Shown: in pieces, positions 12,152 through 32,728 of the stretch
Position numbering within the stretch: the first letter of the stretch is position 1
Layout: every line of letters begins with the position of its first letter
IMG/VR virus record: IMGVR_UViG_3300034066_000828
Span: 1-38,494 of that record
From: a virus
Length of the DNA: 38,494 bases
Reading direction: 5' to 3' (one strand)
Notes under the pieces: model-generated
The model's database searches: none
What the model was told of the DNA's origin: nothing
The model's input: only the letters and a program-made list of their open reading frames with translations
Program-made: the position numbers and the translations under genes

Positions 12152-13318
12152 TTAAACGAACCATGTAACAATTGAATATCTAGATCCAGATTTAACTTCC
12201 ATAACTTCATGAGGATACATAAAGTTTGAGGGAAATACAATAGCAGAACCTTTAGGTGCTTTAATGATTACTTCTCTATCAAAAAAGGCAAACTCCCCAC
12301 CTTCATAATCATCATTTAAATTAAAAGAACAAGATACTGTTCTTGGAGTTGTTTTGTGAGAATCAGTGTGGATGGAATAATATCCCCCAGGATCATACCG
12401 TAAAAGATCATATCCACTATCCGAAATTAATTGACAATGTGGAAATTCTTCAACATATTGTTTAAGAGTATTACCAGAATATTCAAATAATAAAGAATCA
12501 ATTTGTTTTCTAGCATCAATATTTTTATTGATTACATCTGGCATAGACAATCCAATTGTATCACAATTACGAATAAATTTATTTACTTCACCATTTCCAG
12601 TTCTGCTTGGATTCCAATCCTCGCAGTTTTGATATTCTTTCAAAATTAAATCACATACATCTTCAGGAATTGCAGAATAATATATTTTAATATATGAGTC
12701 TAAAGGGTTTTTACTTTTATAGTTTTCTGTTTTTACTATCACTTCTGGACTTTTTTTAATTTCGGTAAAATTACAAAACTGTTTATTATCTTTATCAAAA
12801 TATAAAGATGCATTAGGACCTCTACTTCTTACATAATGTAAGAAGACTTGAGAACAATAACTTCCTGCGAATTCTTCTCTCCAATGAACTATATCTATAC
12901 CCAAATAAATTAAACCATCACCTGGATTTAGAGTAATCTTCTTTTGTTTTCCATTTGGCATTATAACCCAAATAGGCCAAACTATATCAGAATCTAAATT
13001 AACCGTAATTGATATTTCACATTCTTTTCTATCGGTGTGTGATGACAAAACACTTCCCTGTTCATACACTCTAGCATAACTATAAGTTGGTAAAACAGTT
13101 TCACCAATAATTGATGATACATTTGGTGTTTTTTCACACAACAATTCTAAAAATGAAATATAATTGTATTGAGATTTTGAAGTTGGAACTTGTGAATCTC
13201 CACTTAGATTATTTTCATTACATATTTTTATAAATTCTTCTGATAATTTTTTTGCCCTCTCTGAGCATATAAAATTAGGTACTACAACATACCCATTTTC
13301 AAGTAAAGATTGATTCAT
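12152..13318 (-). CDS. Tandem 2OG-Fe(II) oxygenase, 388 aa
   Basis: Two double-stranded beta-helix domains are joined in one chain. Domain 1 (about 1-170) has HTD at 94-96 and a distal His145 (YLGIDIVHWREEF), but no obvious Arg for 2-oxoglutarate. Domain 2 (about 205-388) has HTD at 317-319, His370 (FMYPHEVMEV) and Arg380 (SGSRYSIVTWF), the full 2-His-1-Asp plus Arg set of prolyl-hydroxylase-like enzymes. Such enzymes hydroxylate proteins, nucleotides or small molecules using 2-oxoglutarate and O2. Placement after the tail-collar genes makes a virion protein a possible substrate; that is inference. Confidence 0.8.
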   Translation of the reverse strand: MNQSLLENGYVVVPNFICSERAKKLSEEFIKICNENNLSGDSQVPTSKSQYNYISFLELLCEKTPNVSSIIGETVLPTYSYARVYEQGSVLSSHTDRKECEISITVNLDSDIVWPIWVIMPNGKQKKITLNPGDGLIYLGIDIVHWREEFAGSYCSQVFLHYVRSRGPNASLYFDKDNKQFCNFTEIKKSPEVIVKTENYKSKNPLDSYIKIYYSAIPEDVCDLILKEYQNCEDWNPSRTGNGEVNKFIRNCDTIGLSMPDVINKNIDARKQIDSLLFEYSGNTLKQYVEEFPHCQLISDSGYDLLRYDPGGYYSIHTDSHKTTPRTVSCSFNLNDDYEGGEFAFFDREVIIKAPKGSAIVFPSNFMYPHEVMEVKSGSRYSIVTWFV

Positions 13319-13335
13319 AATAAAATAACAATTTA

Positions 13336-14118
13336 TCAGTTATCTGGAATTTGTGCTGCGTCTACTTGGTGTTCTTGTTCAATGAGTTCTTCAATTTCAT
13401 TTACAATTGGAGAATCTTCATCTTCAAATAACATTTCTAAATTAAATTCATCTTCTAATAAACTTAAATCAAAGTTTTTGAAGTCTTGAATATTAGAAGT
13501 CTCATCTACTCCAGATTCCTCTTCATCAGTTTCTTCTTCTGCATCATATTCTGTTGGATCTACACTATCATCAAAGAGAGAAGGGTCAATATTACTATCA
13601 AAAATAGTCATACTATCATAACTCTTCTCTTTAGATTCATCTTCAATTGCATTTTCTGCATAGTAAAGATTGAGTTGATTCTCTTGAACCTTATTATAAA
13701 TTTGCTCTACTTGCAATTCAAATTCTTCTTTAACTCCATCCAAATGCTTATCTTGCTCTCTCAGCATTTGCTCCAATTCAAATTCATGATTTTTTTGCAT
13801 GACATCTAATTGAAGTTCAAGTTCTTTCATGGCATCTTCCCATGTCATTAACTTTTCTTTTTCAATCTCTGCAAGGATTTCTTGCTCTTTCATCCACTTT
13901 TGATATCCTTCAGTAAATAAATCTACATATTTTTTAATTTCTGATTTATCACTAAGTTCTTTATTTGGGATTGGTGTATTATATTCTAATTCTCCTTTAT
14001 CTCCATGCCACTGAATTGCATGAATATCAGTTTCTTCAAAAGGCCAATTTTCGGCAAAATACATTCCTTTGCCATCAACACTGATAAATTTGTCAGGGTA
14101 AATAACAGTTACTTTCAT
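13336..14118 (-). CDS. Tail-fibre-associated acidic coiled-coil protein, 260 aa
   Basis: Residues 1-50 (YPDKFISVDGKGMYFAENW, HAIQWHGDKGELEY) resemble the N-terminal domain of tail fibre assembly/accessory proteins. Residues 65-155 are coiled coil, and residues 160-260 are extremely rich in Asp/Glu, probably disordered. It directly follows the two collar-like proteins and a Cys-containing protein, so a chaperone or accessory role in fibre assembly is reasonable but inferred. Confidence 0.65.
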   Translation of the reverse strand: MKVTVIYPDKFISVDGKGMYFAENWPFEETDIHAIQWHGDKGELEYNTPIPNKELSDKSEIKKYVDLFTEGYQKWMKEQEILAEIEKEKLMTWEDAMKELELQLDVMQKNHEFELEQMLREQDKHLDGVKEEFELQVEQIYNKVQENQLNLYYAENAIEDESKEKSYDSMTIFDSNIDPSLFDDSVDPTEYDAEEETDEEESGVDETSNIQDFKNFDLSLLEDEFNLEMLFEDEDSPIVNEIEELIEQEHQVDAAQIPDN

Positions 14119-14456
14119 TGATCTGTTACCTCTTTTACATCTGTTGGTAGAATTTTATTTGTTTTTTCATCCATAGTTGCTTGAAGCATTTGTGCTGCAG
14201 CAGATAAGACATTAATATTGGTTTGATTTGCCTTTACCATTTCATTTCTAAATGATTCGACAGCAGCACCAGTAGATCTTTGTTGCTGAGAATTTTCAAT
14301 TAGCATCATAGGAAGCCAAGTAATAGCACAAGACCATTCATCAACTTCTTGTCCAGTATTAGGATTTACTCCCCTAACATGAGTATACCAAGAACATTTT
14401 ATACCAATGCAATCTTTTTTAAGAAGAGGACAATATTTACCAGGCTCAATTTTCAT
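14115..14456 (-). CDS. Conserved phage protein with Cys cluster, 113 aa
   Basis: An N-terminal module contains Cys9, Cys16, Cys21 and a later Cys43 (CPLLKKDCIGIKCSWYTHVR then EWSCAITWLP), a plausible zinc-binding or iron-sulfur site. The C-terminal half is helical (AAVESFRNEMVKANQTNINV). I recall this protein in cyanophages beside tail genes. A late promoter lies 35 bases upstream and it overlaps the next gene by 4 bases. Confidence 0.7.
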   Translation of the reverse strand: MKIEPGKYCPLLKKDCIGIKCSWYTHVRGVNPNTGQEVDEWSCAITWLPMMLIENSQQQRSTGAAVESFRNEMVKANQTNINVLSAAAQMLQATMDEKTNKILPTDVKEVTDQ

Positions 14457-14491
14457 AACTAGTGCAAAGTGTTTTAATAATTAGTATAACA

Positions 14492-14499
14492 TATTTATG
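14492..14499 (-). promoter_or_regulatory. T4-type late promoter CATAAATA
   Basis: CATAAATA on the minus strand, ending 35 bases before the ATG at 14456 and overlapping the stop region of the collar-like gene at 14495. Confidence 0.6.
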
Positions 14500-15052
14500 A
14501 TAATGTGCAAATAATCACATCAACATATTGAACACTCAGATCTGTGGTACTAGCAATATTAGAATTTAGACTAAGAGTACCACTCCAAGGGTGAGTATGA
14601 GATCCACCACCAGTAGATTCAAGCATACCGCTTGTGGCGACACTACCAAAAAAAGTTCTAGATCCAGCATTACTAAAAGGAGTTGCATCTGCACCACCAT
14701 TAGAACCCATAGTTCCAGTGTGAGTATGATTTGGTAGTTGTGTTAAAGAAAGTGTTGTATTTCCAACTGCCCCATCTACCGAATAGGATCCAGAAAATGG
14801 AAAAGATACTTCTGTACCAGTAGATATAAAAGCGTTAGATGCAGATATAGTTCCACCAGAAACTCCTCCAGATCCATTAACAACTCTCAACATTTTATTG
14901 TTTTGAGTTGTATCTTTCACCCAACCAGTAGGTGCATCTGCTTGATAAAATATTTTTTTAGTTCCAGCAGGATATATCCAATAAAAAGAATCTATTACAT
15001 CGGTAAAATCAGTTAAACTAAATCTTATCCCGCTACCAGTTAAAGCTGCCAT
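14495..15052 (-). CDS. Tail collar-like / short fibre tip protein, 185 aa
   Basis: It contains the typical collar-domain core 'KIFYQADAPTGWVKDTTQNN' and 'MLRVVNGSGG', then Gly/Ser-rich strands with HxH motifs (LPNHTHTGTMG and GGGSHTHPWSG), ending in LSVQYVDVIICTLS. In T4 fibre tips such HxH motifs bind iron in a trimeric needle; a similar role here is inference. It is a tandem paralogue of the gene at 15054, one base downstream of it. Virion protein, probably receptor-facing. Confidence 0.8.
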   Translation of the reverse strand: MAALTGSGIRFSLTDFTDVIDSFYWIYPAGTKKIFYQADAPTGWVKDTTQNNKMLRVVNGSGGVSGGTISASNAFISTGTEVSFPFSGSYSVDGAVGNTTLSLTQLPNHTHTGTMGSNGGADATPFSNAGSRTFFGSVATSGMLESTGGGSHTHPWSGTLSLNSNIASTTDLSVQYVDVIICTLS

Positions 15053-15053
15053 A

Positions 15054-15614
15054 TTAGTCGAAACTGCAGATAATTACATCTATGTATTGTACCCTCAAAT
15101 CCAAAGATCCAGTAGCAGTTGAAGTAATCCCAACACTTCCTGACCAAGGATGGTTATGTGATCCACCAGTTCCTCCAGGACTTACTACTCCACCAGTAGC
15201 AGTATTTCCTGGAGTTCTAAAAGAAGAACCCCCAGATGATGCAGAACTAGTACCACCAGTTAAGCTATCATGAGTGTGATCTGGTATTTGTGAAACAGAA
15301 AGAGTCGTATTTCCTACAGTTCCAGCAATATTTGCAGTGATGCTAATTGGAATGTTAAGGTTTTTTAAATCTGAAGGGAATGCAGAAGAAAATGTTAATC
15401 CTCCAGCACCAGATACTCCACCATATCCAAAACCACCACCAGTCCCACTAACAACTCTAAGTGCTTTATCATTATGTGTCGTTACTTTAGTCCACCCTGT
15501 AGGTGCAGAAGATTGATAAAAAACTGCTACTGATGATTGTGGAATAACATCATATCTTGAATTTAATGATGTACTATCATTAAATAGAATACCAGATGCG
15601 GTTAATACTGCCAT
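15054..15614 (-). CDS. Tail collar-like / short fibre tip protein, 186 aa
   Basis: It has the same plan as its neighbour: 'AVFYQSSAPTGWTKVTTHND', 'LRVVSGTGG', HxH motifs in IPDHTHDSLTGG and GGSHNHPWSG, and the C-terminal LRVQYIDVIICSFD. Framework residues are shared while the glycine-rich loops differ, as expected for duplicated receptor-binding proteins. A late promoter lies 31 bases upstream. Confidence 0.8.
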   Translation of the reverse strand: MAVLTASGILFNDSTSLNSRYDVIPQSSVAVFYQSSAPTGWTKVTTHNDKALRVVSGTGGGFGYGGVSGAGGLTFSSAFPSDLKNLNIPISITANIAGTVGNTTLSVSQIPDHTHDSLTGGTSSASSGGSSFRTPGNTATGGVVSPGGTGGSHNHPWSGSVGITSTATGSLDLRVQYIDVIICSFD

Positions 15615-15645
15615 TTTATAACGATATTATTTTCTTTTATTTACT

Positions 15646-15653
15646 TATTTATT
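15646..15653 (-). promoter_or_regulatory. T4-type late promoter AATAAATA
   Basis: AATAAATA on the minus strand in the gap between the AbrB-like gene and the collar genes, 31 bases before ATG 15614. This fits late expression of virion proteins. Confidence 0.7.
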
Positions 15654-15659
15654 GGAATT

Positions 15660-15893
15660 TTAATTCTCCTTTATCCAGAATCCATCTGCAATCATATCTT
15701 GATATGTTTTAGGTTGATCTTCTTTTACTTTTTTTATTGTAAAAGAACCATCATTATTATCAATCCAAAATACTTGATCACCTTCTTTTAAATTTGCTGC
15801 ATTTAAAAGATCTTCTGGAAAGTTAATAAAATAATCACCAGATTCTAAATCATATTGTACTGGTAAAGACCATTTGATTACTTTATCATCCAT
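15660..15893 (-). CDS. AbrB/SpoVT/MazE-like swapped-hairpin protein, 77 aa
   Basis: Residues 10-55 (SGDYFINFPEDLLNAANLKE, GDQVFWIDNNDGSFTIKK) follow the AbrB/MazE pattern: strand, 'lP.ell....l..Gd.v.w...', strand. These domains dimerise and often bind DNA or act as antitoxins. No toxin-like gene is adjacent, so a plain transcription or accessory role is more likely. The C-terminal 20 residues (YQDMIADGFWIKEN) are extra. It overlaps the upstream gene by 8 bases. Confidence 0.7.
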   Translation of the reverse strand: MDDKVIKWSLPVQYDLESGDYFINFPEDLLNAANLKEGDQVFWIDNNDGSFTIKKVKEDQPKTYQDMIADGFWIKEN

Positions 15894-16065
15894 TTTCTTT
15901 AAGTTGATTTAAATAATTTTCTATTTGTTCTGTTAAAATTTTTGTTAATTCGTCTTCTGTCTTTCCATTTAACCAAGAGTATGTAGGATCATCAGAATCC
16001 CATTCAACTGTAAAACTACCATCTTTCTCTTCAGTTACTCTTAAACTATCTTTTTTATTTGTCAT
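15886..16065 (-). CDS. Conserved cyanophage-type protein, 59 aa
   Basis: I take ATG 16063-16065 (MTNKKDSLRVTEEKDGSFTV); an ATG five codons upstream is also possible. The core 'DGSFTVEWDSDDPTYSWLNG' followed by a helix is a pattern I recall from many cyanophages, function unknown. It overlaps both neighbours. Confidence 0.7.
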   Translation of the reverse strand: MTNKKDSLRVTEEKDGSFTVEWDSDDPTYSWLNGKTEDELTKILTEQIENYLNQLKENG

Positions 16066-16246
16066 CTTCTTCCCAGTCATTTTTTTCTCTTTTACGAAGT
16101 TTTTTTAGTTCCTTCATTAAAGTTTTAATCTCTTGATATGCAGTTTCTGGGTTCATTTTGTTGGAAATCTCAAGACCAACAATATATTGAACTTTATCAC
16201 CAAATCTTGCCAAAGCACGTTCAAATTCAGTCAAAGATTCGTACAT
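16055..16246 (-). CDS. Hypothetical helical protein, 63 aa
   Basis: A 63-residue protein starting MYESLTEFERALARFGDKVQ and ending in a Lys/Glu-rich helix (KELKKLRKREKNDWEEDDK). I recall the start as cyanophage-typical. It overlaps both neighbours by 1 and 11 bases. Confidence 0.7.
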   Translation of the reverse strand: MYESLTEFERALARFGDKVQYIVGLEISNKMNPETAYQEIKTLMKELKKLRKREKNDWEEDDK

Positions 16247-16518
16247 TATGATTCCCCTAAAGTAAAGTCATTTAAATTTAACACTGGAGGATTAATTTTG
16301 TCAATTTTCGATTGTAATCTATTTTCAAGTTCATACATTGCATTTGCCATACAAACATTTTCTTTTTCAAGATAACGTATTCTGGAATGAAGATTGGCAA
16401 TTTCATCCGCAAGGGAAATTTTAAAATTCGTTCTATCTACCAAATTAACATTGTGAGTTTTTACATCATATTCTTCTAAAATTCGATCAAAGAATTTATT
16501 AATGATATTTTTAATCAT
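16246..16518 (-). CDS. Hypothetical coiled-coil protein, 90 aa
   Basis: A 90-residue protein beginning MIKNIINKFFDRILEEYDVK. Residues 35-72 form a heptad-patterned helix (IANLHSRIRYLEKENVCMAN), and the C-terminus is extended. It starts in a TAATG overlap. Function unknown. Confidence 0.65.
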   Translation of the reverse strand: MIKNIINKFFDRILEEYDVKTHNVNLVDRTNFKISLADEIANLHSRIRYLEKENVCMANAMYELENRLQSKIDKINPPVLNLNDFTLGES

Positions 16519-16661
16519 TATTTTACTCCAATCTCTTTTAGATATGAATGATAACGAAGAAAACTACCTAATCTACAAGGTCTACCTAAACTAAGACAAC
16601 ATTCTTGATATGATAAAAATTCATACCAAGGTGTTGTTGGATCTAATACATGATAGTTCAT
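16518..16661 (-). CDS. Hypothetical protein, 47 aa
   Basis: A 47-residue protein beginning MNYHVLDPTTPWYEFLSYQE with a CC pair and a further Cys (ECCLSLGRPCRLGSFLRYHS). It starts in an ATGA overlap with the SGNH-like gene and ends in a TAATG overlap. Function unknown. Confidence 0.6.
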   Translation of the reverse strand: MNYHVLDPTTPWYEFLSYQECCLSLGRPCRLGSFLRYHSYLKEIGVK

Positions 16662-17464
16662 AGTAATGAAAGATTTACGTTTATTAGTTCTGCAAATTCT
16701 TTATTAGTATCTTTACCACAATGCTTCATATCTCTTGCATAATCATCTTTTGGTTGATAAAAATCACAATTCAAAATACTAGAAGTGGTTTTAAAAACAC
16801 TAAATTCATAATATTTACAACAGTCTTTCCACAGATTACGAACTATTTTGACATTCATCATATTAAAAGGAACTAAGTGTTCTGCAGATTTTACGTTAAT
16901 ACTATCTGTCGGTATTTTATTATCAAAATAAAGTGGATGATATACAAGATATCTCATTAATGAAGTCCACCCATATACAACAGCAGCAGGTGGACCATAA
17001 CGATCATTTAAAATCATAGAATTGTGCAGTGCTAATTGAATAGATGAACCACCTACACCCATATTAATAACTGGCATACCTGTCAAATCTTCTAAAAAAG
17101 AAGAGATTGTATGCTTATCATCAACTCCCGTTCCAAATACATAAGAACATCCAAATATAACAATAGAATTTTTCCAATCTACTTCATCAAATTCTTTGGT
17201 TCTATATCCTTCAGAATTTAAAGTATATCCTACTTTATTATCACGATAATACCAATTTTCTGGTTGAACTTTTAAATTATTATTATAGAGATAATGAGAA
17301 TCTGTCCCAGAATAATCCCAAGTACCTTTTAAGCATAATCTATTAGAATTTATAGATTTGCCTTCATTATAAACTGTATGATTTGCAAGAGGTAAAAATT
17401 GATTATTATTAATTGACTTAATAATATTTCTATTATTAAACTTTAAATTAAATCGATTTATCAT
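16658..17464 (-). CDS. SGNH/GDSL hydrolase-like protein, 268 aa
   Basis: Block I is IVIFGCSYVFGTG at about 101-113 with Ser107 as candidate nucleophile; block II Gly is in VINMGVGGSS (132-141); block V is YARDMKHCGKD with Asp245 and His248, the DxxH catalytic pair. Block III Asn is less clear. This set marks SGNH hydrolases, which act as esterases or, in glycan clusters, as acetyl-transfer partners. No signal peptide, so cytoplasmic. It is a paralogue of the gene at 17920, and both follow a carbamoyltransferase gene, suggesting one pathway. Confidence 0.75.
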   Translation of the reverse strand: MINRFNLKFNNRNIIKSINNNQFLPLANHTVYNEGKSINSNRLCLKGTWDYSGTDSHYLYNNNLKVQPENWYYRDNKVGYTLNSEGYRTKEFDEVDWKNSIVIFGCSYVFGTGVDDKHTISSFLEDLTGMPVINMGVGGSSIQLALHNSMILNDRYGPPAAVVYGWTSLMRYLVYHPLYFDNKIPTDSINVKSAEHLVPFNMMNVKIVRNLWKDCCKYYEFSVFKTTSSILNCDFYQPKDDYARDMKHCGKDTNKEFAELINVNLSLL

Positions 17465-17574
17465 TTATATATGAAGTTATCTTCTTTTTTAATTTTGTTT
17501 TCCAATTTTTTTAGTTTCACTTTTTCAAAATATTCAATAATATGTATAAAGATTTTTTGTATTGAATTACCCAT
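17461..17574 (-). CDS. Tiny basic protein, 37 aa
   Basis: A 37-residue Lys-rich peptide starting MGNSIQKIFIHIIEYFEKVK, a single amphipathic helix. Its start is in a TAATG overlap and its stop in an ATGA overlap, so it fills the gap between two genes exactly. Function unknown. Confidence 0.5.
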   Translation of the reverse strand: MGNSIQKIFIHIIEYFEKVKLKKLENKIKKEDNFIYK

Positions 17575-17789
17575 TACAATTTACCACCAACAACACCTTC
17601 ATATTTAACTGAAGTATCAGTAGACCATCCTTCTTGCATTCCTTTCAAATAAAATCGGGTTGCCGATATACAATTTTCTTCCGTTAAGGTAGTAATTAAT
17701 TCTTTTCCATTTGCATCAAAGGATCTCCACGTTCCCCATCTAGAACGCTCAACATAAAAAGAATCATCAATTAGATTTTTGTTGTTCAT
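17574..17789 (-). CDS. Conserved cyanophage-type protein, 71 aa
   Basis: ATG 17787-17789 is chosen over a TTG nine codons upstream. The 71-residue product contains YVERSRWGTWRSFDANGKEL and LTEENCISATRFYLKGMQEG, which I recall from cyanophages. Possibly a small alpha/beta protein. It overlaps the upstream gene by 23 bases. Confidence 0.7.
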   Translation of the reverse strand: MNNKNLIDDSFYVERSRWGTWRSFDANGKELITTLTEENCISATRFYLKGMQEGWSTDTSVKYEGVVGGKL

Positions 17790-17892
17790 TGTTTTGGGAA
17801 TTGTGAATTTGGGCAAGAATATTTAAGAGTTCTGGAGTTTCTTCCCATTCCCAAATAGTACCATCTTTTTGAGTGTAAGTTCTTGTTGCCAT
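17767..17892 (-). CDS. Hypothetical protein, 41 aa
   Basis: A 41-residue peptide starting MATRTYTQKDGTIWEWEETP, beta-hairpin then helix, with a polar end. It overlaps the next gene by 23 bases. Function unknown. Confidence 0.5.
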   Translation of the reverse strand: MATRTYTQKDGTIWEWEETPELLNILAQIHNSQNNEQQKSN

Positions 17893-17919
17893 AAATCTTA
17901 CTGTTAAAATTAAATGATA

Positions 17920-18657
17920 TCACAAATTTAAATTTTTAGCAATAGTTTCTGCTGCAATTTTATTGGTTTCTTTTCCAGCATGTCCTAAATCTCTTGCATA
18001 ATCAACTTGTTTAATATAATCACAAGAAAGAGTATCTGCAACTGTTTTAAAAAATGTGAACTCATAATAATTTGTTCTATTATTCCACATTTCTCTAGAA
18101 ATTATGGATGATAATTTTAAGTTTACTGCAGGATGTTCTTCATTACTATTCCACGTTTCTCCCATTTTTTTAGAATCCTTTAACCAATTACCACAATGAA
18201 TTACTTCATTTTTGGTATAAAAAGGACACCTATATTGAGAAGACCATCCATAAATTATTGCTTTAGGAGTTGGATATTTTGCACTTAAAATAGCAGAGTT
18301 GTGTAAAGAAAATGTTGGAGAAGATCCAGGTGATCCCATATTAATCACAGGAATTCCAGTTATTTCTTCTAAATATCCTGATATGGTTTCATCTTCTGCA
18401 CTACCTACACCATAAATGTAAGAACAACCAAACAAAACTATACACTTTCTCCAATCAATGTCTTTAAATTGTTTGGTCCTATATCCAAAAGAATTTGTAA
18501 TATAATAAACAATTTTATCCCTATAATGCCATTCTTTTGGTTGAACTTTTAGATTGTGGACATATCTTTCTTTCGTATCTTGATCATACCAAAATTTATT
18601 AGATGGTTTATCTATCGGAAAAAAATTCTTACTGTTTAAATTTTCTAATATGTTCAT
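17920..18657 (-). CDS. SGNH/GDSL hydrolase-like protein, 245 aa
   Basis: ATG 18655-18657 is chosen because it makes an ATGA overlap with the carbamoyltransferase stop; the frame extends further but only inside that gene. Motifs match the paralogue at 16658: IVLFGCSYIYGVG with Ser79, VINMGSPGSS, and YARDLGHAGKE with Asp223 and His226. Both proteins also share HNLKVQP/NNLKVQP, a Tyr-Arg-Asp patch and the NS-G-YRTK(Q/E)F-DW block. The shared N-terminal region suggests a family of phage SGNH proteins with a common substrate type. Confidence 0.75.
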   Translation of the reverse strand: MNILENLNSKNFFPIDKPSNKFWYDQDTKERYVHNLKVQPKEWHYRDKIVYYITNSFGYRTKQFKDIDWRKCIVLFGCSYIYGVGSAEDETISGYLEEITGIPVINMGSPGSSPTFSLHNSAILSAKYPTPKAIIYGWSSQYRCPFYTKNEVIHCGNWLKDSKKMGETWNSNEEHPAVNLKLSSIISREMWNNRTNYYEFTFFKTVADTLSCDYIKQVDYARDLGHAGKETNKIAAETIAKNLNL

Positions 18658-20078
18658 GAAAATATTTTCACTCCATAAGTCTCTTCCCATTCTTTACAAT
18701 CATTCTCATCATTTACCATTGGTTTTCCTTTGATGTTTAAACTTGTGTTTAATAACATTGGACAACCAGTTTTCTCATTCCACAATTTTAAAAGATCATA
18801 GAGTTCTGCATTCTGTTGTCTATTAACAGTTTGAACTCTACTTGTCTTATCTATATGGACAATTGCAGGAAACTTTTTAGAATATCTACATTTAACCGCA
18901 TACTGCATATATGGTGATGAATTTGTAGGCATATTAAAATAGTCATGCACGTACTCTTCCATGATTACAGGAGCGAATGGTCTAAACTGTTGTCTCTGTT
19001 TTATATCATTGACCATTGATTTAATCTTTCGGTCTCTAGGATCGGCAAGCAAACTACGATTACCTAATGCTCTAGGACCAAACTCTGCACGACCCCTTGC
19101 AACTCCACAAAGACCATGATCCATTAAATGATCAACAATCTCTTCATTTGTTGCAACTGGTTTAATATGATATCCAAGATAAGGTCCATGCCAATCAATA
19201 TGATGTTTTTTATGAGCAAGAACAGATCCAATGGCAGATCCATTATCACCAGGTGCAGGCATAATCCACACATCATCAAAGTAATAATATGCAATTGGAT
19301 TTGCAACACAGTTTAATGCACATCCACCCATCAGAACTAAGTTTCTACTATCAACAATATTAGATGCTCTCTGTAGAATATCTCTAAACATTGTTTCATA
19401 AATGTCTTGAGTTGCAGCAGCAATATCAAAAGTGTTTTTAATGTCAGGTCTCCAATCTCTACATCCTTTATGTAAGTTTTTTTTAAATGTTGCAGTCCTA
19501 AATCCTATAAAATCTCTGTAGATATCATTTTCATAAAGAAGTTTATCCCCATAAGCAGACATGCCCATGAGGATATATTCTTCTTCATTTGGTTTTAATC
19601 CACACCTTTGAGTCATCGCAGAGTACCAAAGTCCGATGCTGTGTGGATATTTACGTTGAAACTTAAGTTTTAATCTATTACCGTTTGCTTCCCAGATAGT
19701 GAGTGTCTGAAATTCACCTATAGCGTCAATAACCACCACACAACATTCATCAAACTTGCTGGTGAAATAACCAGCACAAGCATGAGTATAATGGTGATCA
19801 TAATACTTGATTGGAACATCAACATACTTCTTGACGTTTTGGATCCATCCTTGACCTGCAAGAAGTTGTCTAAGTGTTTTCTTATACGGGTTCTCATACC
19901 AACAGACCAGTTCTGGTTTTCCAAACTTTAGTGCATAGTTAATAATATCATCATTCAAATATGCATCATTTTTTATACCACTAAATCTTTCACTTTCACT
20001 AGCAAAAACTAATGTGTCATTAACAAATACAGAGAGAGCTGCATTGTGACTTTCTGATGATATTCCCCAGGTAATCAT
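18654..20078 (-). CDS. NodU/TobZ-type O-carbamoyltransferase, 474 aa
   Basis: This family moves a carbamoyl group from carbamoyl phosphate, through carbamoyl-AMP, to a hydroxyl of a sugar or other small molecule. The start is ATG 20076-20078 in a TCATGA overlap with the radical SAM gene. Visible motifs are the N-terminal ASKHA-fold start (WGISSESHNAALSVF), a metal-site HHYTHA near residue 95-100, GMSAYGDK, a MGGCALNC block, and the C-terminal Sua5/YrdC-like FGPRALGNRSLLADPRD, FRPFAPVIMEE and LNTSLNIKGKPM. All expected core motifs are present, so it is probably active. Its partners are the flanking radical SAM and SGNH genes. Acceptor unknown. Confidence 0.9.
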   Translation of the reverse strand: MITWGISSESHNAALSVFVNDTLVFASESERFSGIKNDAYLNDDIINYALKFGKPELVCWYENPYKKTLRQLLAGQGWIQNVKKYVDVPIKYYDHHYTHACAGYFTSKFDECCVVVIDAIGEFQTLTIWEANGNRLKLKFQRKYPHSIGLWYSAMTQRCGLKPNEEEYILMGMSAYGDKLLYENDIYRDFIGFRTATFKKNLHKGCRDWRPDIKNTFDIAAATQDIYETMFRDILQRASNIVDSRNLVLMGGCALNCVANPIAYYYFDDVWIMPAPGDNGSAIGSVLAHKKHHIDWHGPYLGYHIKPVATNEEIVDHLMDHGLCGVARGRAEFGPRALGNRSLLADPRDRKIKSMVNDIKQRQQFRPFAPVIMEEYVHDYFNMPTNSSPYMQYAVKCRYSKKFPAIVHIDKTSRVQTVNRQQNAELYDLLKLWNEKTGCPMLLNTSLNIKGKPMVNDENDCKEWEETYGVKIFS

Positions 20079-20908
20079 GAGTTTAACTTCTCCCAATAAC
20101 TTACAGGAAGAGTTGGATCATTTTTTTGATATGGATTGTCAATATTTGCTGGGCACATAGCACAAAAACACTCATCTTCCCTATTTAAAAATTCTTCAAG
20201 TTCTTGATCAGAACAGTTTATATCCAATGGTTTATATTTTAAATAAGGATCCCATTTTTTGTCAAGTTCATATTTTTTTGTTTGCATCGGTAAATATGCC
20301 AGAGGTGGACACTTCCACAATTTACCTTCATGTATTTGTAGAGCCTTTTTAGATAAGCATTTTTCCCAACTTTTTCTTGGATCATTATCTTCATATGGCA
20401 TCATATTATTGCCAAATCCTTTATATTGGGGCATCCATGTATCTGTTGTAAAGTCCCAAAATTCTAAATTTATTCCATACTGCTTTCTCCATTCTTTAGC
20501 CAATCTATATCCTTTTTTAAATTTATTTACATACCCAGGATGTATTTTACTATGAATTGAAATTGCTAAAGTAGTATCAGTATCAAGCAACGCTTGTGGT
20601 AAATCAGAGTGCATATGCAAAAAACTTGCATTTGATACTAAATCAATTGCAGTTGCAGTATCTGGCCACATCATTCTTACCAGATAAATTATATCAATTA
20701 AATTCTTATTAAGAGTTGGTTCTCCACCCAATATAGTAAACAATTCTGGTTGCAATCTTCTACTCCAAGAATACAACCATTCATCACATTCTTTTAGAGA
20801 TAAAGTTCCAGAATGTCCGTGATTTGAATAATGAGAACATCCTTCACAACTAAAATTGCAAGTATGCGTTACATGTAATTCTATGTGCGGAACTTTAAAG
20901 GTTTTCAT
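20075..20908 (-). CDS. Radical SAM enzyme, 277 aa
   Basis: The iron-sulfur motif C17-x3-C21-x2-C24 (HTCNFSCEGCSHY) and GGEPT at 61-65 define a radical SAM core that cleaves SAM to start radical chemistry. Further Cys at about 187 (EKCLSKKALQIHEGKLWKCP) and near the end (CFCAMC) could bind an auxiliary cluster, as in SPASM-type peptide and sugar-modifying enzymes. It overlaps the carbamoyltransferase gene by 4 bases, so the two are probably co-translated. It could supply the hydroxylated or rearranged acceptor that is then carbamoylated (inference). Confidence 0.88.
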   Translation of the reverse strand: MKTFKVPHIELHVTHTCNFSCEGCSHYSNHGHSGTLSLKECDEWLYSWSRRLQPELFTILGGEPTLNKNLIDIIYLVRMMWPDTATAIDLVSNASFLHMHSDLPQALLDTDTTLAISIHSKIHPGYVNKFKKGYRLAKEWRKQYGINLEFWDFTTDTWMPQYKGFGNNMMPYEDNDPRKSWEKCLSKKALQIHEGKLWKCPPLAYLPMQTKKYELDKKWDPYLKYKPLDINCSDQELEEFLNREDECFCAMCPANIDNPYQKNDPTLPVSYWEKLNS

Positions 20909-21072
20909 TTACGATTTTCTATTTTAACTTTATTTTTTTTAAGTTTATGTCGTTCCAAATATTTATCGAGATGTTCTTTACATTCAAAATGACAAACTTT
21001 CTTAACCTTATTTTCTTCATACTCCAATCTAAATGGAAAATTCGGATAAGGAAATCTAACAGTATCAATCAT
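20905..21072 (-). CDS. Conserved cyanophage-type protein, 55 aa
   Basis: ATG 21070-21072 is chosen (MIDTVRFPYPNFPFRLEYEE); two ATGs lie upstream but inside the previous gene. The core 'CHFECKEHLDKYLERHKLKK' with two Cys and several His looks like a small metal-binding treble-clef or ribbon. I recall close relatives in cyanophages, function unknown. Confidence 0.7.
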   Translation of the reverse strand: MIDTVRFPYPNFPFRLEYEENKVKKVCHFECKEHLDKYLERHKLKKNKVKIENRK

Positions 21073-21262
21073 TTTTTGTCCCACCATAAAATTTACTTTC
21101 TGAGCTTTGATATCCAATCTCCCAAGCAGTTTTTAACCATTTTTTGATCATAGAATAATCTTTAGTTTGAGACGCATACTCAAAATCATCCCAAAACCGC
21201 TCAGATCGATAGGAAAATCCCTCCAACTCATCAAACCAATCATCAAAAGTTTTGTAATTCAT
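21065..21262 (-). CDS. Hypothetical protein, 65 aa
   Basis: A 65-residue protein starting MNYKTFDDWFDELEGFSYRS, rich in aromatic and acidic residues, helical. It overlaps its upstream neighbour by 4 bases and the next by 8. Function unknown. Confidence 0.65.
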   Translation of the reverse strand: MNYKTFDDWFDELEGFSYRSERFWDDFEYASQTKDYSMIKKWLKTAWEIGYQSSESKFYGGTKND

Positions 21263-22059
21263 AACTCAATCTCAAAGTTAGGGTCAAAGTCCAAGTTCAA
21301 ATCTCTATTGTTGTAACCATTGTAGTATCCTCTGGGATTGCAAACAATCCGACATTCACCGATTTTATAGTCAAATGAAGTATGGGTGTGACCGTGGGAC
21401 CAGACCCTAATCTCAGGGTTGTCCAGGATGAGACCGTCAAGATCGCTGACATAGGCACCGTTTGCGATGCCCGATTTTCGGTATTTTTCGTGAACGGACT
21501 GGTAAGAAGGTGCGTGGTGCGTGAGAACCCAGATTTTCTGGTTTTTAAAAAGTTCTAACTGTTCCAGAAGAAACTGCTTAGATTTACGATGGAAACCATA
21601 TGTATCATCAGGATTCATCTTACGATACTTTGGAGTGATACGAATAGTCTTATAATCATTCATACACTGTGCCGCTTCCATCATTTCCAGGGCATTTCCA
21701 TTACGGAAGTCAGTCCAAAAAGTAGAACCGATAAAAACCCAATCAGCAATCTTCACCACATTATCTTCCATCAGTTGAATACCTTCAGGAAGATTCTCTT
21801 TTAGAACATTCCAGGTTCCTTCATAGTTGTATCCATATGCTTCATGATTCCCTGTGATATACAGAACATGCATAAAATTGTCAGCACACTTCTTTAGGAA
21901 GTTAGTATAAACTTCTTTGAGAGAACCATTCTTTTTGAAGTGGCGAGCACAGAGAATATCCCCACCAAGGATCAGAACTTCACCCTCTCCAAGGTCAGGA
22001 ACTCCATGCCCGTGTTCACACATTTCCAAATGTAAATCACTGACTAAACGAACTTTCAT
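21259..22059 (-). CDS. Calcineurin-like metallophosphoesterase, 266 aa
   Basis: The start ATG 22057-22059 overlaps the stop of the RlpA-like gene. All five metallophosphoesterase motifs are visible in order: DLHLE (8-12), GGDIL, GNHEA, THHAP and GHTHT. They coordinate two metal ions for phosphoester cleavage. Substrate cannot be told from motifs: nucleic-acid ends, cyclic nucleotides and dinucleoside polyphosphates are all possible. In T4-like phages such genes sit among nucleotide and repair genes, as here next to the RNA repair operon. Confidence 0.88.
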   Translation of the reverse strand: MKVRLVSDLHLEMCEHGHGVPDLGEGEVLILGGDILCARHFKKNGSLKEVYTNFLKKCADNFMHVLYITGNHEAYGYNYEGTWNVLKENLPEGIQLMEDNVVKIADWVFIGSTFWTDFRNGNALEMMEAAQCMNDYKTIRITPKYRKMNPDDTYGFHRKSKQFLLEQLELFKNQKIWVLTHHAPSYQSVHEKYRKSGIANGAYVSDLDGLILDNPEIRVWSHGHTHTSFDYKIGECRIVCNPRGYYNGYNNRDLNLDFDPNFEIEL

Positions 22060-22370
22060 CCAACTACTCTCCAACATACAGTAGCGTTACCCTTACTCGT
22101 AGAAGAAATATGAGCAAAGGCAGCATAAGAAAGATCCAAATCAGCATGACTATATGGACCACGATCATTTACTCTTACAATAACTTGTTTTCCGTTGTTT
22201 TGGTTCGTTACCCTAATTTTGCTACCCATAGGTAGATAAGGATGAGCTGCAGTCCAACGATAAGCATCAAACCGCTCACCGTTAGCAGTTGTTTGTCCAT
22301 GAAATCCGTCTCCAATTCCGTAAAAAGTTGCAATTCCGCAAGTCAATCCAGCAATAAGTGTGTCAATCAT
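22056..22370 (-). CDS. RlpA-like double-psi beta-barrel protein, 104 aa
   Basis: The sequence follows the RlpA barrel: GIATFYGIGDGFHGQTTANG, TAAHPYLPMGSKIRVTN, VIVRVNDRGPYSHAD and LDLSYAAFAHI. RlpA is a septal lytic transglycosylase in some bacteria. Only the barrel is present, without a SPOR domain, and the first 10 residues (MIDTLIAGLT) are too short for a normal signal peptide, so export is unclear. It may help attack peptidoglycan at lysis, or be a virion-associated murein hydrolase; both are inference. Confidence 0.8.
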   Translation of the reverse strand: MIDTLIAGLTCGIATFYGIGDGFHGQTTANGERFDAYRWTAAHPYLPMGSKIRVTNQNNGKQVIVRVNDRGPYSHADLDLSYAAFAHISSTSKGNATVCWRVVG

Positions 22371-29103: not shown

Positions 29104-29520
29104 TCAGTTCAAAAATTGGTCTAAGGTAATTGGTCCTAACGTACCATCAAATCGGTAATGATATTCCAGGGCATCATAGCACACATAGTGAGGATGGGAG
29201 GTGGACACCCCAATTCTTTTACATAATTCTTTATGATTATCTTCCATTAACTCCACAGCATATAACATATTATCTACAATATGCTGTTCAGTATGATATT
29301 GTCTAAGTGCTTTAAGTAATTGAACTAAAAAATTACCGTCACCAGCACAGTTATCAATAAATTTAGAACTTGGATCTTTAAGAACCTCTTCTGGAATATC
29401 CAAAATCATTTTATCAATTAGGGCAGGAGGAGTAAATACCTCCTGCGTCTGTTTGATTCTCTCATCAGATCTCTCAAGTTGAGATCCATGCTTTTTGTTA
29501 TGTTTATTTTTAGATGGCAT
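29104..29520 (-). CDS. Truncated N6-adenine methyltransferase-like protein, 138 aa
   Basis: Motif X is QEVFTPPALIDKMI (26-39), motif I DNCAGDGNFL (56-65), motif II around Glu90 (YAVELMEDNHK) and motif III near Asp116, all from the SAM-binding half of gamma-type adenine methyltransferases. It stops before the catalytic NPPY motif. It may bind SAM or DNA as a subunit, or be a degenerate domain. It overlaps the end of the 1056-residue gene by 11 bases, and that protein has its own NPPY. Confidence 0.75.
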   Translation of the reverse strand: MPSKNKHNKKHGSQLERSDERIKQTQEVFTPPALIDKMILDIPEEVLKDPSSKFIDNCAGDGNFLVQLLKALRQYHTEQHIVDNMLYAVELMEDNHKELCKRIGVSTSHPHYVCYDALEYHYRFDGTLGPITLDQFLN

Positions 29521-32500
29521 TATTTTTCTTTAAATACTCAACTTCTTCTTCAGTAAAACCAAATTGATCAGACAAATTAGCATAGTCTGTAATGTCAGGT
29601 ACTTCACCATTTTTAATGGCGGGAGTAAATCCAGCAGTCTTTTTGTAATTATCAATAAAGAACTGAATAATTTTATTGTCAAAGATTTTACTAAGACGAT
29701 CCCCTTCTTCTTCCGAAGTAATTGGACACCAACAATTAAACATACCCACAAATCCGCTAGAGGTAAAGATGCCACCATTCTTATACGTAGAAGAGAATGG
29801 AACAATAAACTTTAGCACATCTCCAGTTGTAGGAACAATATTGGTGCGTTTAACTTTTTTAGAAGAGTGGTAGATCTCATACTTGCCATCAGGAATATGA
29901 TCTTCTTTAGCAATTGCTTGACCCATCTTTAGAGGAATACGTGGATGGTTAGAGTTAGCAATCTTATTAAGGATAGAATGCTTAAGAGCAGAATCTCCAA
30001 CAAGAGGAAGACCATCTCGCAAATCCCAAGTAAAGGAACCATCATGAGTAATGACAGTGGTTTTACCCTGATAAGGTTCATTTGTAAGATGCCAACGACA
30101 AATAGCAACACCCTCAGTAAAGTAATCATCTGCAGTATAATCAATCATTTTTAGATTATACTTTGTAGAGAACAACTTCATAAACTTTTTACCTTTACCT
30201 GTTGTTCCAAGAACAGATGAAGGAGTAACTTCACAAATGTCTCCTCCAGGAGCAACCAGTTCAAGGTGCTGTTCAACCACAATAGGCCAAAGTTTATTGT
30301 TCTTTGCTTTTTTGGTGGGATCGTTATATGGAGGATTTGCTAAAATGGCGGTAAACTTCATATCTGGATGAGAGTCAACAATATTAATACTATCATTGAT
30401 ATATTTTACACGATTACGATGACTATTGCAACTCTCCCATACGGTAATGTTATTTGGATCCACTTGTCGCTCTAAAAGACGGGCAGTGTGAGATCCACTA
30501 GGATCACCAAACATGTAGACGTTAGAAAGATCATTGCAGTTATCAATCATAAGATCAAAAAGTTCGACAGGAATAGACTGTTGAATTTGAGAAGACACAG
30601 ACAACTCATTAATAGTATGAGAAACGGAATTCCTAATACTCTTTTGAATACTATTAGAAACAATACCAATACGACGAGTTAAAAGTTCAATGCTATGAGG
30701 GTTCTTACTAATCACATCATCAAGAATACCCTCACAGTCACCAGTAACAGAAGGATAAACTGCAGAACCAATAACATCATTGATTGAATATACATTTTGA
30801 CCATTACGAATGATGTAGAACATGGTCAGAGGAATAGACTCAAGAAGTGCCTTGACAGTCTGCTTCTTCAAAGTGTCAAGGTCATTAGACTTTTTTACAC
30901 GCTCAGTCTCCCGAACGATACAACTTTTGTTGTTGGCACCCTCATCGTTAAGTTGTGATTCTTTCATAACCGTGGAAAGATCGGTTTTGAGTTTTAGATT
31001 AAAATCGCTAATCTTACTAAGGTCCAGAGATTCTACGATACTGGTAATGGTAGAGATGCTTCCCTCAACATCAGCGGCGAGGGCATCTTCAAAAAGTTCT
31101 TTACTGAGTTCTTTAAATCCATCATTCCATTCGTGAATATTGGTAAAGTCAACTACACTATATTGAGATAGTGCAGGATTATTATCACATGCAAGTTGGA
31201 ATGCTGTGTGAATGGCACGGAGACACCTCTGAGCATCAAAATCAATCACCCACCAATCATGAACACCAGAACCACCACGGAAAGCAAATTGAGTCCAAAA
31301 CTCAATAGATTCACCACCTTTACAATTAATAACGGTATCAATTTTTTTGGCAGTTACACCAAGAACGTTTGCAGATTGTGTAATGATAAGTGCTTTTGAA
31401 TTTTCTTCAAGAAATCGGTTAATATCATCTTGATCTTTATTAGTATCTGAAGTAACAACTAGGGAAGGATAATAACAATGCACCAACTTTTGAAATGCAT
31501 GACATGCTTTGACACTAGGAAGTGCCATCATGTGATATGTACCCCTTAAAAGACGATCTCCAATGCGAATCTCTCGTTGGGGACCAAAGTATTTGTGAAT
31601 AAATTCCCGAACAAGAATCTCATACAAAAACTTATCATCTTCCATTGTGAAGATATTCTTCATAGCATCAGGATCATCACCAAAAATTTCCTGATATGCA
31701 GAAGTTTGGTATTTTGCGAAAGCAATGTTCATTTTAGGACGCTTAAAAACACCATTTTGAACATCAAATTGTTCATCAAAATAAGTATACACAAACTTTT
31801 GGCGTTCATCAGGGAACATCCAGCAAAGTTTATGAGCAGTCCCAGAAATATAGCAGATACGACTTTTAATTTTGTTGCGAAGAGTGGTGAACTGTTTAGC
31901 AGTACCACCAATATGTGCTTCATCAAAAGCAACAAAATCAATATTATGAATCCTATCAATACGTGTAATAAAGCTCTGTACAGTACCCCATAGAACAATA
32001 TTTACATCACGTTCCATCCAGTATTCAAGATACGTTTCCCAAGAAGGATCTTGAACAGAAATGTATTTAATTGTAGGAAAGAATTCGTTAGAATCATTTT
32101 CCCAAGAAGCTTCTGGTGACCTTTGACGAGAACAAACCAGAGAAAGTTTATAATTACTATCTACAATATGCTTGAGAACCATAGCAGACTTACCTGCACG
32201 GCACTTGGCAAACAACAAAAATTCTTCACTAACATTCCATGCAGAAGCAATTTTTTGCAAAAACTTCTGTTGATATGGGCGAGGTTTAAATTCAGTATAT
32301 ACTTTTTCCTTACCAGAGAAAAATTTCTCATAGATCATTTGAACGATGATCTCAAGATTATAAAATTTTGGATCAAATTCAAAAGTCTCACTATTTTTTG
32401 CACCAATCCTTTTCATCCCAGGAAGAGTATCCAACCAAGAATGAATAATCTTATCGTGTCCAGCGTCCTTACCATCATCACGAGTAGATACATTTGTCCA

Positions 32501-32680
32501 CCAGGCGTAATTAATGTACTGGTCTTTTGTTTGAGCAAGCGTCTGCTTTGCTTTACCATAGTCACTATTGCGATGACGATGATCATAAGTATAAATTGTC
32601 TGACCAACGTTGAAAGAATTTACGCCGCTTTTAAGACTATCAACGTAGATATTGACCAGGGACACAGATAATAAAATCAA
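29510..32680 (-). CDS. GIY-YIG-like/SF2 ATPase/adenine methyltransferase fusion, 1056 aa
   Basis: Domains in order: 1-105, GIY-YIG/T5orf172-like (NIYVDSLKSGVNSFNVGQT, DHRHR, then AGHDKIIHSWLDTLPG, with Asp where the catalytic Glu is expected); 130-480, SF2 ATPase with CRAGKSA (160-166), DEAH (253-256) and SGTAH (279-283); 480-700 helical coupler; 715-850 methyltransferase with GDPSGSHT near 723 and NPPY at 781-784; 850-1056 a possible target-recognition region. This is the layout of single-chain type ISP restriction-modification enzymes. There is no ATG start: TTG 32678-32680 (after GGAG) or GTG 32663-32665; a stop lies just upstream in frame. Product would methylate or cut DNA; activity is unproven. 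Confidence 0.85.
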   Translation of the reverse strand: MILLSVSLVNIYVDSLKSGVNSFNVGQTIYTYDHRHRNSDYGKAKQTLAQTKDQYINYAWWTNVSTRDDGKDAGHDKIIHSWLDTLPGMKRIGAKNSETFEFDPKFYNLEIIVQMIYEKFFSGKEKVYTEFKPRPYQQKFLQKIASAWNVSEEFLLFAKCRAGKSAMVLKHIVDSNYKLSLVCSRQRSPEASWENDSNEFFPTIKYISVQDPSWETYLEYWMERDVNIVLWGTVQSFITRIDRIHNIDFVAFDEAHIGGTAKQFTTLRNKIKSRICYISGTAHKLCWMFPDERQKFVYTYFDEQFDVQNGVFKRPKMNIAFAKYQTSAYQEIFGDDPDAMKNIFTMEDDKFLYEILVREFIHKYFGPQREIRIGDRLLRGTYHMMALPSVKACHAFQKLVHCYYPSLVVTSDTNKDQDDINRFLEENSKALIITQSANVLGVTAKKIDTVINCKGGESIEFWTQFAFRGGSGVHDWWVIDFDAQRCLRAIHTAFQLACDNNPALSQYSVVDFTNIHEWNDGFKELSKELFEDALAADVEGSISTITSIVESLDLSKISDFNLKLKTDLSTVMKESQLNDEGANNKSCIVRETERVKKSNDLDTLKKQTVKALLESIPLTMFYIIRNGQNVYSINDVIGSAVYPSVTGDCEGILDDVISKNPHSIELLTRRIGIVSNSIQKSIRNSVSHTINELSVSSQIQQSIPVELFDLMIDNCNDLSNVYMFGDPSGSHTARLLERQVDPNNITVWESCNSHRNRVKYINDSINIVDSHPDMKFTAILANPPYNDPTKKAKNNKLWPIVVEQHLELVAPGGDICEVTPSSVLGTTGKGKKFMKLFSTKYNLKMIDYTADDYFTEGVAICRWHLTNEPYQGKTTVITHDGSFTWDLRDGLPLVGDSALKHSILNKIANSNHPRIPLKMGQAIAKEDHIPDGKYEIYHSSKKVKRTNIVPTTGDVLKFIVPFSSTYKNGGIFTSSGFVGMFNCWCPITSEEEGDRLSKIFDNKIIQFFIDNYKKTAGFTPAIKNGEVPDITDYANLSDQFGFTEEEVEYLKKNNAI

Positions 32681-32691
32681 ACTACTCCATT

Positions 32692-32722
32692 ATTATACAC
32701 CATAAAAAAGGGGGGTTGTCAA
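32692..32722 (-). promoter_or_regulatory. Promoter TTGACA-19-TATAAT, -35 box in terminator loop
   Basis: -35 TTGACA (32717-32722) lies in the loop and inner stem of the terminator at 32704-32728; -10 TATAAT is at 32692-32697. The 19-base spacer is longer than the usual 17, so the promoter may be weak or activator-dependent. It faces the gene at 32680. Confidence 0.55.
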
Positions 32723-32728
32723 CCCCCC
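32704..32728 (-). terminator. Strong rho-independent terminator
   Basis: On the minus strand GGGGGGTT-GAC-AACCCCCC is followed by six T. It is 7 bases after the fibre stop codon and ends the structural transcript. Confidence 0.95.

Follow-up and report, generated by a model that had tools for sequence, protein, structure and literature searches.

Known cases of programmed frameshifting include dnaX, transposases and phage tail genes. The dnaX gene of E. coli combines a Shine-Dalgarno (SD)-like element, the slippery heptamer A_AAA_AAG and a downstream hairpin, shifts at about 50% and stops one codon past the slip, while the roles of the two frames are reversed in other bacteria, and a single nucleotide is enough to exchange them when the efficiency is close to 50% (PMC5009743). 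Generally, the stimulators of -1 frameshifting are an SD 6-17 nucleotides (nt) before the site and a structure 5-8 nt after it (PMC4066793). Among restriction-modification enzymes, the Type ISP proteins LlaGI and LlaBIII (PMC4872093; PDB 4XQK) join a nuclease, an SF2 motor, a helical coupler, a gamma N6-adenine methyltransferase and a C-terminal recognition region in this order, and phage ICP1 uses a T5orf172 nuclease against a parasite (PMC8263062). Here we describe a gene with the same domain order as the Type ISP enzymes in a viral stretch of 38,494 nt (IMG/VR record IMGVR_UViG_3300034066_000828, the whole of which is called the window below), which carries a conserved -1 frameshift signal of the dnaX type. 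Our search of the open-access literature found no restriction-modification-type enzyme for which programmed frameshifting has been reported.

The large gene is an open reading frame (ORF) of 1,056 codons running from 32680 to 29510 on the minus strand, and it is open throughout in the 0 frame of the window. The listed start is TTG at 32680, while GTG at 32665 aligns with the ATG or GTG starts of relatives and is probably the likelier one, giving 1,051 amino acids (aa). Homologues span the whole chain in several dozen IMG/VR contigs and in Synechococcus phages (MA10, MA01, ME01, MC09, S-CAM7 and ACG-2014f), with identity down to about 32-40%, so the ORF is far beyond chance. Its protein matches phrog_22930 (unknown function) over residues 20-712 and phrog_3689 (DNA methyltransferase) over residues 725-1046. 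The gene and the elements of the signal are as follows.

29510-32680, minus strand: gene for the nuclease, motor, coupler and methyltransferase in its long form, from the ORF, the structure model and PHROG matches.
30908-30912, minus strand: SD-like GGGAG, separated from the downstream heptamer by 11 nt; relatives have GGAG, GGAGG or GAGAGG.
30890-30896, minus strand: slippery heptamer A_AAA_AAG, in the reading frame.
30885-30887, minus strand: -1-frame stop TAA, one codon past the slip, which ends the predicted short product.
30850-30881, minus strand: putative stimulatory hairpin with arms 30874-30881 (CCTTGACA) and 30850-30857 (TGTCAAGG), from folding and covariation.

The window hairpin folds with -14.9 kcal/mol (z -3.4). 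For the window ORFs of at least 90 codons, four in-frame A_AAA_AAG sites were found, and only this one is combined with an SD, a strong hairpin and an immediate -1 stop. The predicted short product has 598 aa (593 aa from GTG 32665), ends with V-K-K-V-stop and contains the nuclease and motor, while the predicted long product adds the coupler, methyltransferase and recognition parts.

In the clade of 24 contigs (window included), which has 17 distinct junction sequences, A_AAA_AAG is in frame in all 24, with a GGAG/GAGG-type sequence about 11 nt 5' of it in every case. This conservation goes beyond the need for two lysines: 14 genes contain 124 Lys-Lys codon pairs, only 16 of which are A_AAA_AAG, and 14 of these 16 are the frameshift site itself, while of the 22 invariant Lys columns only three keep one codon, two of them in the heptamer. 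The 3' hairpins of the other clade members have z values of -2.0 to -5.3, and their arms change together (for example CCTTGAC/GTCAAGG, CCCTAAC/GTTAGGG and CCCTGA/TCAGGG). In the hairpin alignment 92.2% of cells are paired and 6 of 12 pairs changed on both sides; none of 500 shuffles reached the covariation score, and slid controls are paired for 20-42%. Three fused relatives without the heptamer (L020, L042, L043) have neither SD nor stem (-3.5 and -5.1 kcal/mol) and retain the peptide TVKALLES. Thus the features of a dnaX-type signal, namely a conserved in-frame X_XXY_YYZ beyond amino-acid need, an SD 6-17 nt upstream and a covarying downstream structure, are found together, and judged by sequence comparison the signal is very probably real.

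Some relatives appear to be broken into two ORFs near residue 600, and the second ORF is always in the -1 frame with the overlap on GTA/GCA AAA AAG. In the fused state (14 of 24, window included) the 0 frame continues, while a slip meets a -1 stop after a single codon, through the different sequences GTC TAA, GTC TGA and GAT TGA. In the split state (10 of 24) one base is missing relative to the window and the roles are exchanged, so that a stop closes the 0 frame within 0-6 codons, while the coupler and methyltransferase are encoded in the open -1 frame. These parts can be reached in the 10 split contigs by a slip only, as no usable start codon exists; an internal start for the -1 ORF was considered and rejected, since no ATG, GTG or TTG occurs before codon 21. 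On a maximum-likelihood tree, for which the junction residues of clade members were removed, well-supported branches force at least three swaps between the fused and split states. Both states should yield the same two predicted products, about 600 aa (nuclease and motor) and about 1,050 aa, and the frame swaps with unchanged outcome are a natural experiment which implies selection for both products. The repeated exchange of roles also suggests a slip efficiency near one half (about 50%).

The likeness to dnaX tau/gamma (PMC5009743, PMC4066793, PMC6787027) covers A_AAA_AAG, the upstream SD-like element, the downstream hairpin, the stop one codon on and the reversed arrangement in some members. 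The proteins, however, are unrelated, and the phage case concerns a restriction-modification-type enzyme with a frameshift predicted from sequence.

We modelled the whole chain with AlphaFold2 from a 38-row alignment, which gave the expected domains, a gamma-type adenine methyltransferase among them, with a mean predicted local distance difference test (pLDDT) of 82. The parts are listed below in the order of the chain.

32369-32656, minus strand: T5orf172/GIY-YIG-like N-terminal domain, residues about 9-104, from alignment, domain model and viral fold matches.
31001-32290, minus strand: SF2 helicase-like motor, residues about 131-560, with DEAH and GTAH, from profile matches and the structure model.
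30887-30991, minus strand: disordered linker that joins the motor to the coupler, with residues 564-598 below pLDDT 50 in AlphaFold2, and contains the frameshift site.
30542-30880, minus strand: all-helical coupler-like domain, residues about 601-713, from the structure model.
30013-30541, minus strand: methyltransferase catalytic domain with degenerate motif I DPSGSH (726-731) and NPPY (782-785), from profile matches, alignment and model.
29513-30012, minus strand: C-terminal region, presumed to recognise the target, from its position and LlaBIII-like topology only.
29104-29520, minus strand: 138-aa gene (phrog_4376) with motif X QEVFTPP and motif I FIDNCAGDGNF, lacking NPPY, presumably the S-adenosylmethionine (AdoMet)-binding half.

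The frameshift site, within the disordered linker, directly precedes the coupler, whose helix begins at residue 601. In Foldseek against PDB, LlaBIII ranks first (E 4.6e-18) with an alignment across the whole chain; template modelling (TM) scores are modest, about 0.42, which would be expected if the domains are positioned differently. A sequence search of PDB with the whole protein gave no meaningful match. The phage enzyme thus shares with LlaGI and LlaBIII the order of parts, including an all-helical coupler after the SF2 helicase-like ATPase, but it has a T5orf172-like domain in place of the Mrr nuclease (no Mrr match was found), about two thirds of the length, a degenerate motif I, a separate gene for the presumed AdoMet half and a predicted -1 frameshift to a short nuclease-motor, and it is borne by a phage.

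An earlier note on this DNA had described the gene as encoding a single-chain protein with the Type ISP domain order, a T5orf172-like end of a nuclease fold other than theirs, and an apparent Asp in place of the catalytic Glu; it gave no strand and missed both the frameshift signal and the probable methyltransferase partner in the next gene. Its motifs were all found in the large protein (DEAH at residues 253-256, GTAH at 280-283, DPSGSHT at 726-732 and NPPY at 782-785), the domain order agrees with the predicted structure and its top PDB match, viral predicted folds speak for the T5orf172-like end, and the Asp (D76) is real and present in 30 of 30 relatives. The single-chain claim is not supported in the form given: although the window ORF is open, the conserved signal predicts two products, 10 relatives are split by frame and others are two genes, and the AdoMet-binding half appears in the linked 138-aa gene that follows. 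The enzyme is thus probably no ordinary single chain, and by its nuclease it falls outside Type ISP.

A separate model of the N-terminal domain has a pLDDT of 87. This model had no fold match in PDB, the profile of the domain had no meaningful match among PDB sequences, and the N-terminus of the window protein had no Pfam match. The GIY-YIG Pfam family touched 3 of 30 relatives (best E 0.023), and a search for Pfam T5orf172 in related phage records gave zero matches. Among the viral predicted structures of BFVD, the best matches, below one homologue, include many named T5orf172/GIY-YIG, with probability 0.9-1.0 and E 0.002-0.04. G26, K43, D76 and E98 are invariant (D76, H80, K43 and G26 invariant or nearly so). 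The change from Glu to Asp at the catalytic position, found in all 30 relatives compared, is a fixed family trait and not decay. Nuclease activity of the domain seems somewhat more probable than its absence. The phage-encoded T5orf172-type nuclease Odn/Gp88 of ICP1 (PMC8263062) is aimed at competing DNA, but it has no motor or methyltransferase and retains the catalytic Glu.

The methyltransferase part shows motif I as DPSGSH instead of the usual DPxxGSG, while NPPY is present in nearly all relatives (NAPY in L020). The 138-aa gene (29520 to 29104), whose first 11 nt are shared with the large gene, has canonical motifs X and I and no motif IV. For Pfam N6_Mtase, the 138-aa protein matches 21-89 and the large protein 109-234, weakly (E 0.041); the large protein also matches Eco57I 51-170 (E 8e-7). 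In L099-L106 and Prochlorococcus phage P-SSM2 the catalytic protein begins at NPPY and the 138-aa homologue follows directly, and of the 28 locus entries L042-L069 (some of them repeats), 27 have the homologue in the vicinity of the methyltransferase gene. A profile comparison between the 138-aa protein and the methyltransferase part detected no relation, as expected for different halves. Since motif I of the large chain is degenerate and the 138-aa gene has motifs X and I without NPPY, the methyltransferase is, with good probability, split over the large chain and the 138-aa product.

Related layouts were seen elsewhere. In L107 (1991-10316) five methyltransferase-like genes come after one 138-aa-type gene; all five have NPPY/NPPF and two start at the motif, and possibly one AdoMet subunit is common to several specificity subunits. 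In L110 (2015-3950; gp114/gp115 of Klebsiella phage PKO111) a LEM-3-type GIY-YIG domain (E 2.7e-15) is joined to an NPPF region and the next gene has a motif-I-like FLEPSAGDGN, a similar layout of nuclease and split methyltransferase in another T4-like genus. In L046, L054 and L056, two tandem methyltransferase paralogues separate the nuclease-motor gene from the 138-aa-type gene. The named phages S-CAM7 (gp055/gp056/gp057), ACG-2014f and MA10 have homologous proteins (36-42% identity) with a 138-aa-type gene nearby, but in S-CAM7 and ACG-2014f the break comes after the coupler and gives two genes with ordinary overlapping starts, while MA10 has a fused gene without the slippery heptamer. The S-CAM7-type two-gene junctions that we checked are mostly an overlapping or adjacent ATG; frameshifting there was rejected, as no slippery heptamer lies near the stop in those checked.

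We consider it fairly probable that the whole is a two-form, Type-ISP-like phage enzyme made by -1 frameshifting, with the 138-aa protein as its methyltransferase partner. A T4-like cyanophage would encode an ATP-driven enzyme of the restriction-modification type in two forms from one gene, as the upstream GGGAG and the downstream hairpin would make a share of ribosomes slip back one base on A_AAA_AAG. In the window the 0 frame would give the long form and the slip the 598-aa nuclease-motor, and in sister phages exchanged roles would lead to the same two products. The methyltransferase part would take its AdoMet-binding half from the 138-aa product, and the long form with this protein would most likely recognise and mark a DNA site. 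Short and long forms would most likely combine at a fixed ratio into a site-dependent translocase/nuclease against competing DNA, the phage DNA being methylated. From the genes we infer the two proteins, their assembly, and DNA methylation, translocation and cutting. By analogy, the enzyme would most likely restrict competing DNA and mark the phage's own, because of the ISP-like layout and the use of T5orf172 by ICP1 against a parasite, while pure modification or translocation would be a possible role because of Asp76.

Other explanations of the junction itself account for the data less well. If the split copies were broken genes or assembly errors, there would be no frameshifting; they are all metagenome contigs, none of them from a cultured phage, but separate samples show the identical split, as do lineages that share only about 50-58% identity with the window, neither ORF is damaged elsewhere and the overlap always falls on A_AAA_AAG in the -1 sense. 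Moreover, the indel separating the two states lies past the A run, whose length is the same in all copies, so homopolymer error is not the cause of the split, and we regard this explanation as very improbable. Two products could also arise by transcriptional slippage on the A run, the route of Thermus dnaX (PMC5009743), but the run has only six A's followed by G, compared with runs of 9 cited there, and the conserved SD and hairpin are ribosomal stimulators, which makes such a route improbable. A plain single-chain enzyme, in which the heptamer is a harmless relic or coincidence and the long form alone matters, would fit the open 0 frame of the window and the heptamer-less fused relatives; it is unlikely, though less so than slippage, because a relic would drift, while the fused genes retain SD, heptamer, covarying hairpin and -1 stop through differing sequences.

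The function of the two products leaves more room. Several points weigh against the assembled enzyme preferred here: the idea of a set stoichiometry rests on the dnaX analogy alone, the heptamer-less relatives make only the long form, the coupler of S-CAM7 and ACG-2014f belongs to the nuclease-motor subunit, the Asp for Glu may disable cutting, and a Rossmann half with degenerate motif I is still present in the large chain, so AdoMet may be bound within the chain. Because of the heptamer-less and two-gene relatives, the short form is not needed across the whole family, and the same relatives would suit a short form that is a mere by-product of a control limiting the long form, with no assembly of the two. 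This is a tentative reading, as the site in a disordered linker at a domain edge and the immediate -1 stops kept there fit a selected C-terminus; that short and long forms act together is, on the dnaX analogy, only slightly favoured over their acting apart. Similarly, the nuclease-like domain might be inactive and the complex only a methyltransferase or translocase, for instance against host restriction. The invariant Asp and the lack of a PDB match for the domain speak for it, but Asp can bind metal and D76, H80, K43 and G26 are (near-)invariant, unlike in a decayed domain, and such inactivity is rather doubtful.

As for the phage setting, which the earlier note had also claimed, the genes of the window point to a T4-like phage: they include a tail fibre with S74 chaperone, a T4-type RNA ligase and a phage helicase with almost exclusively cyanophage relatives. 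Judging by these genes, the window represents part of the genome of a T4-like cyanophage, a virus of ocean cyanobacteria. Upstream of the large gene lies the following element.

32692-32728, minus strand: terminator-like hairpin with T run (32704-32728), then TATAAT (32692-32697), after the tail fibre gene.

The hairpin and T run are kept in 8 of 8 relatives inspected and are followed by a -10-like box, either TATAAT or a sequence close to it, and this region is probably the large gene's own promoter. TTGACA stands in the loop region of the hairpin, with TATAAT 19 nt on, and is missing in some relatives. A bacterial origin was rejected after two scans of genome contigs, in which the sole relative was a contig in a Rhodobacteraceae metagenome-assembled genome (PAHT02000089.1); it is 64% identical, ends at the contig edge and is probably a misbinned phage contig. 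PADLOC and NCBIfam gave the large protein no defence-system assignment, Rfam and tRNA scans had no matches, and an extra DNA pattern scan of viral contigs added zero new family members. Besides, the window contains at 12152-22077 a cluster of genes for 2OG-Fe(II) oxygenase, Nol-like carbamoyltransferase, radical SAM and metallophosphoesterase proteins.

In conclusion, the frameshift signal with exchange of roles is the unexpected feature of this family and, so far as we found, is new for DNA restriction or modification enzymes. It is reasonably likely that frameshifting sets the subunit ratio of this motor enzyme, with repeated reversal of the frame for the long form, and that its adenine methyltransferase is made from two genes (catalytic/recognition and AdoMet halves), an arrangement that recurs in other T4-like phages. 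If the methyltransferase is split in this way, it would account for many unannotated genes of 130-140 aa in T4-like phages, and a translocating restriction-type enzyme would be buildable from separable halves.

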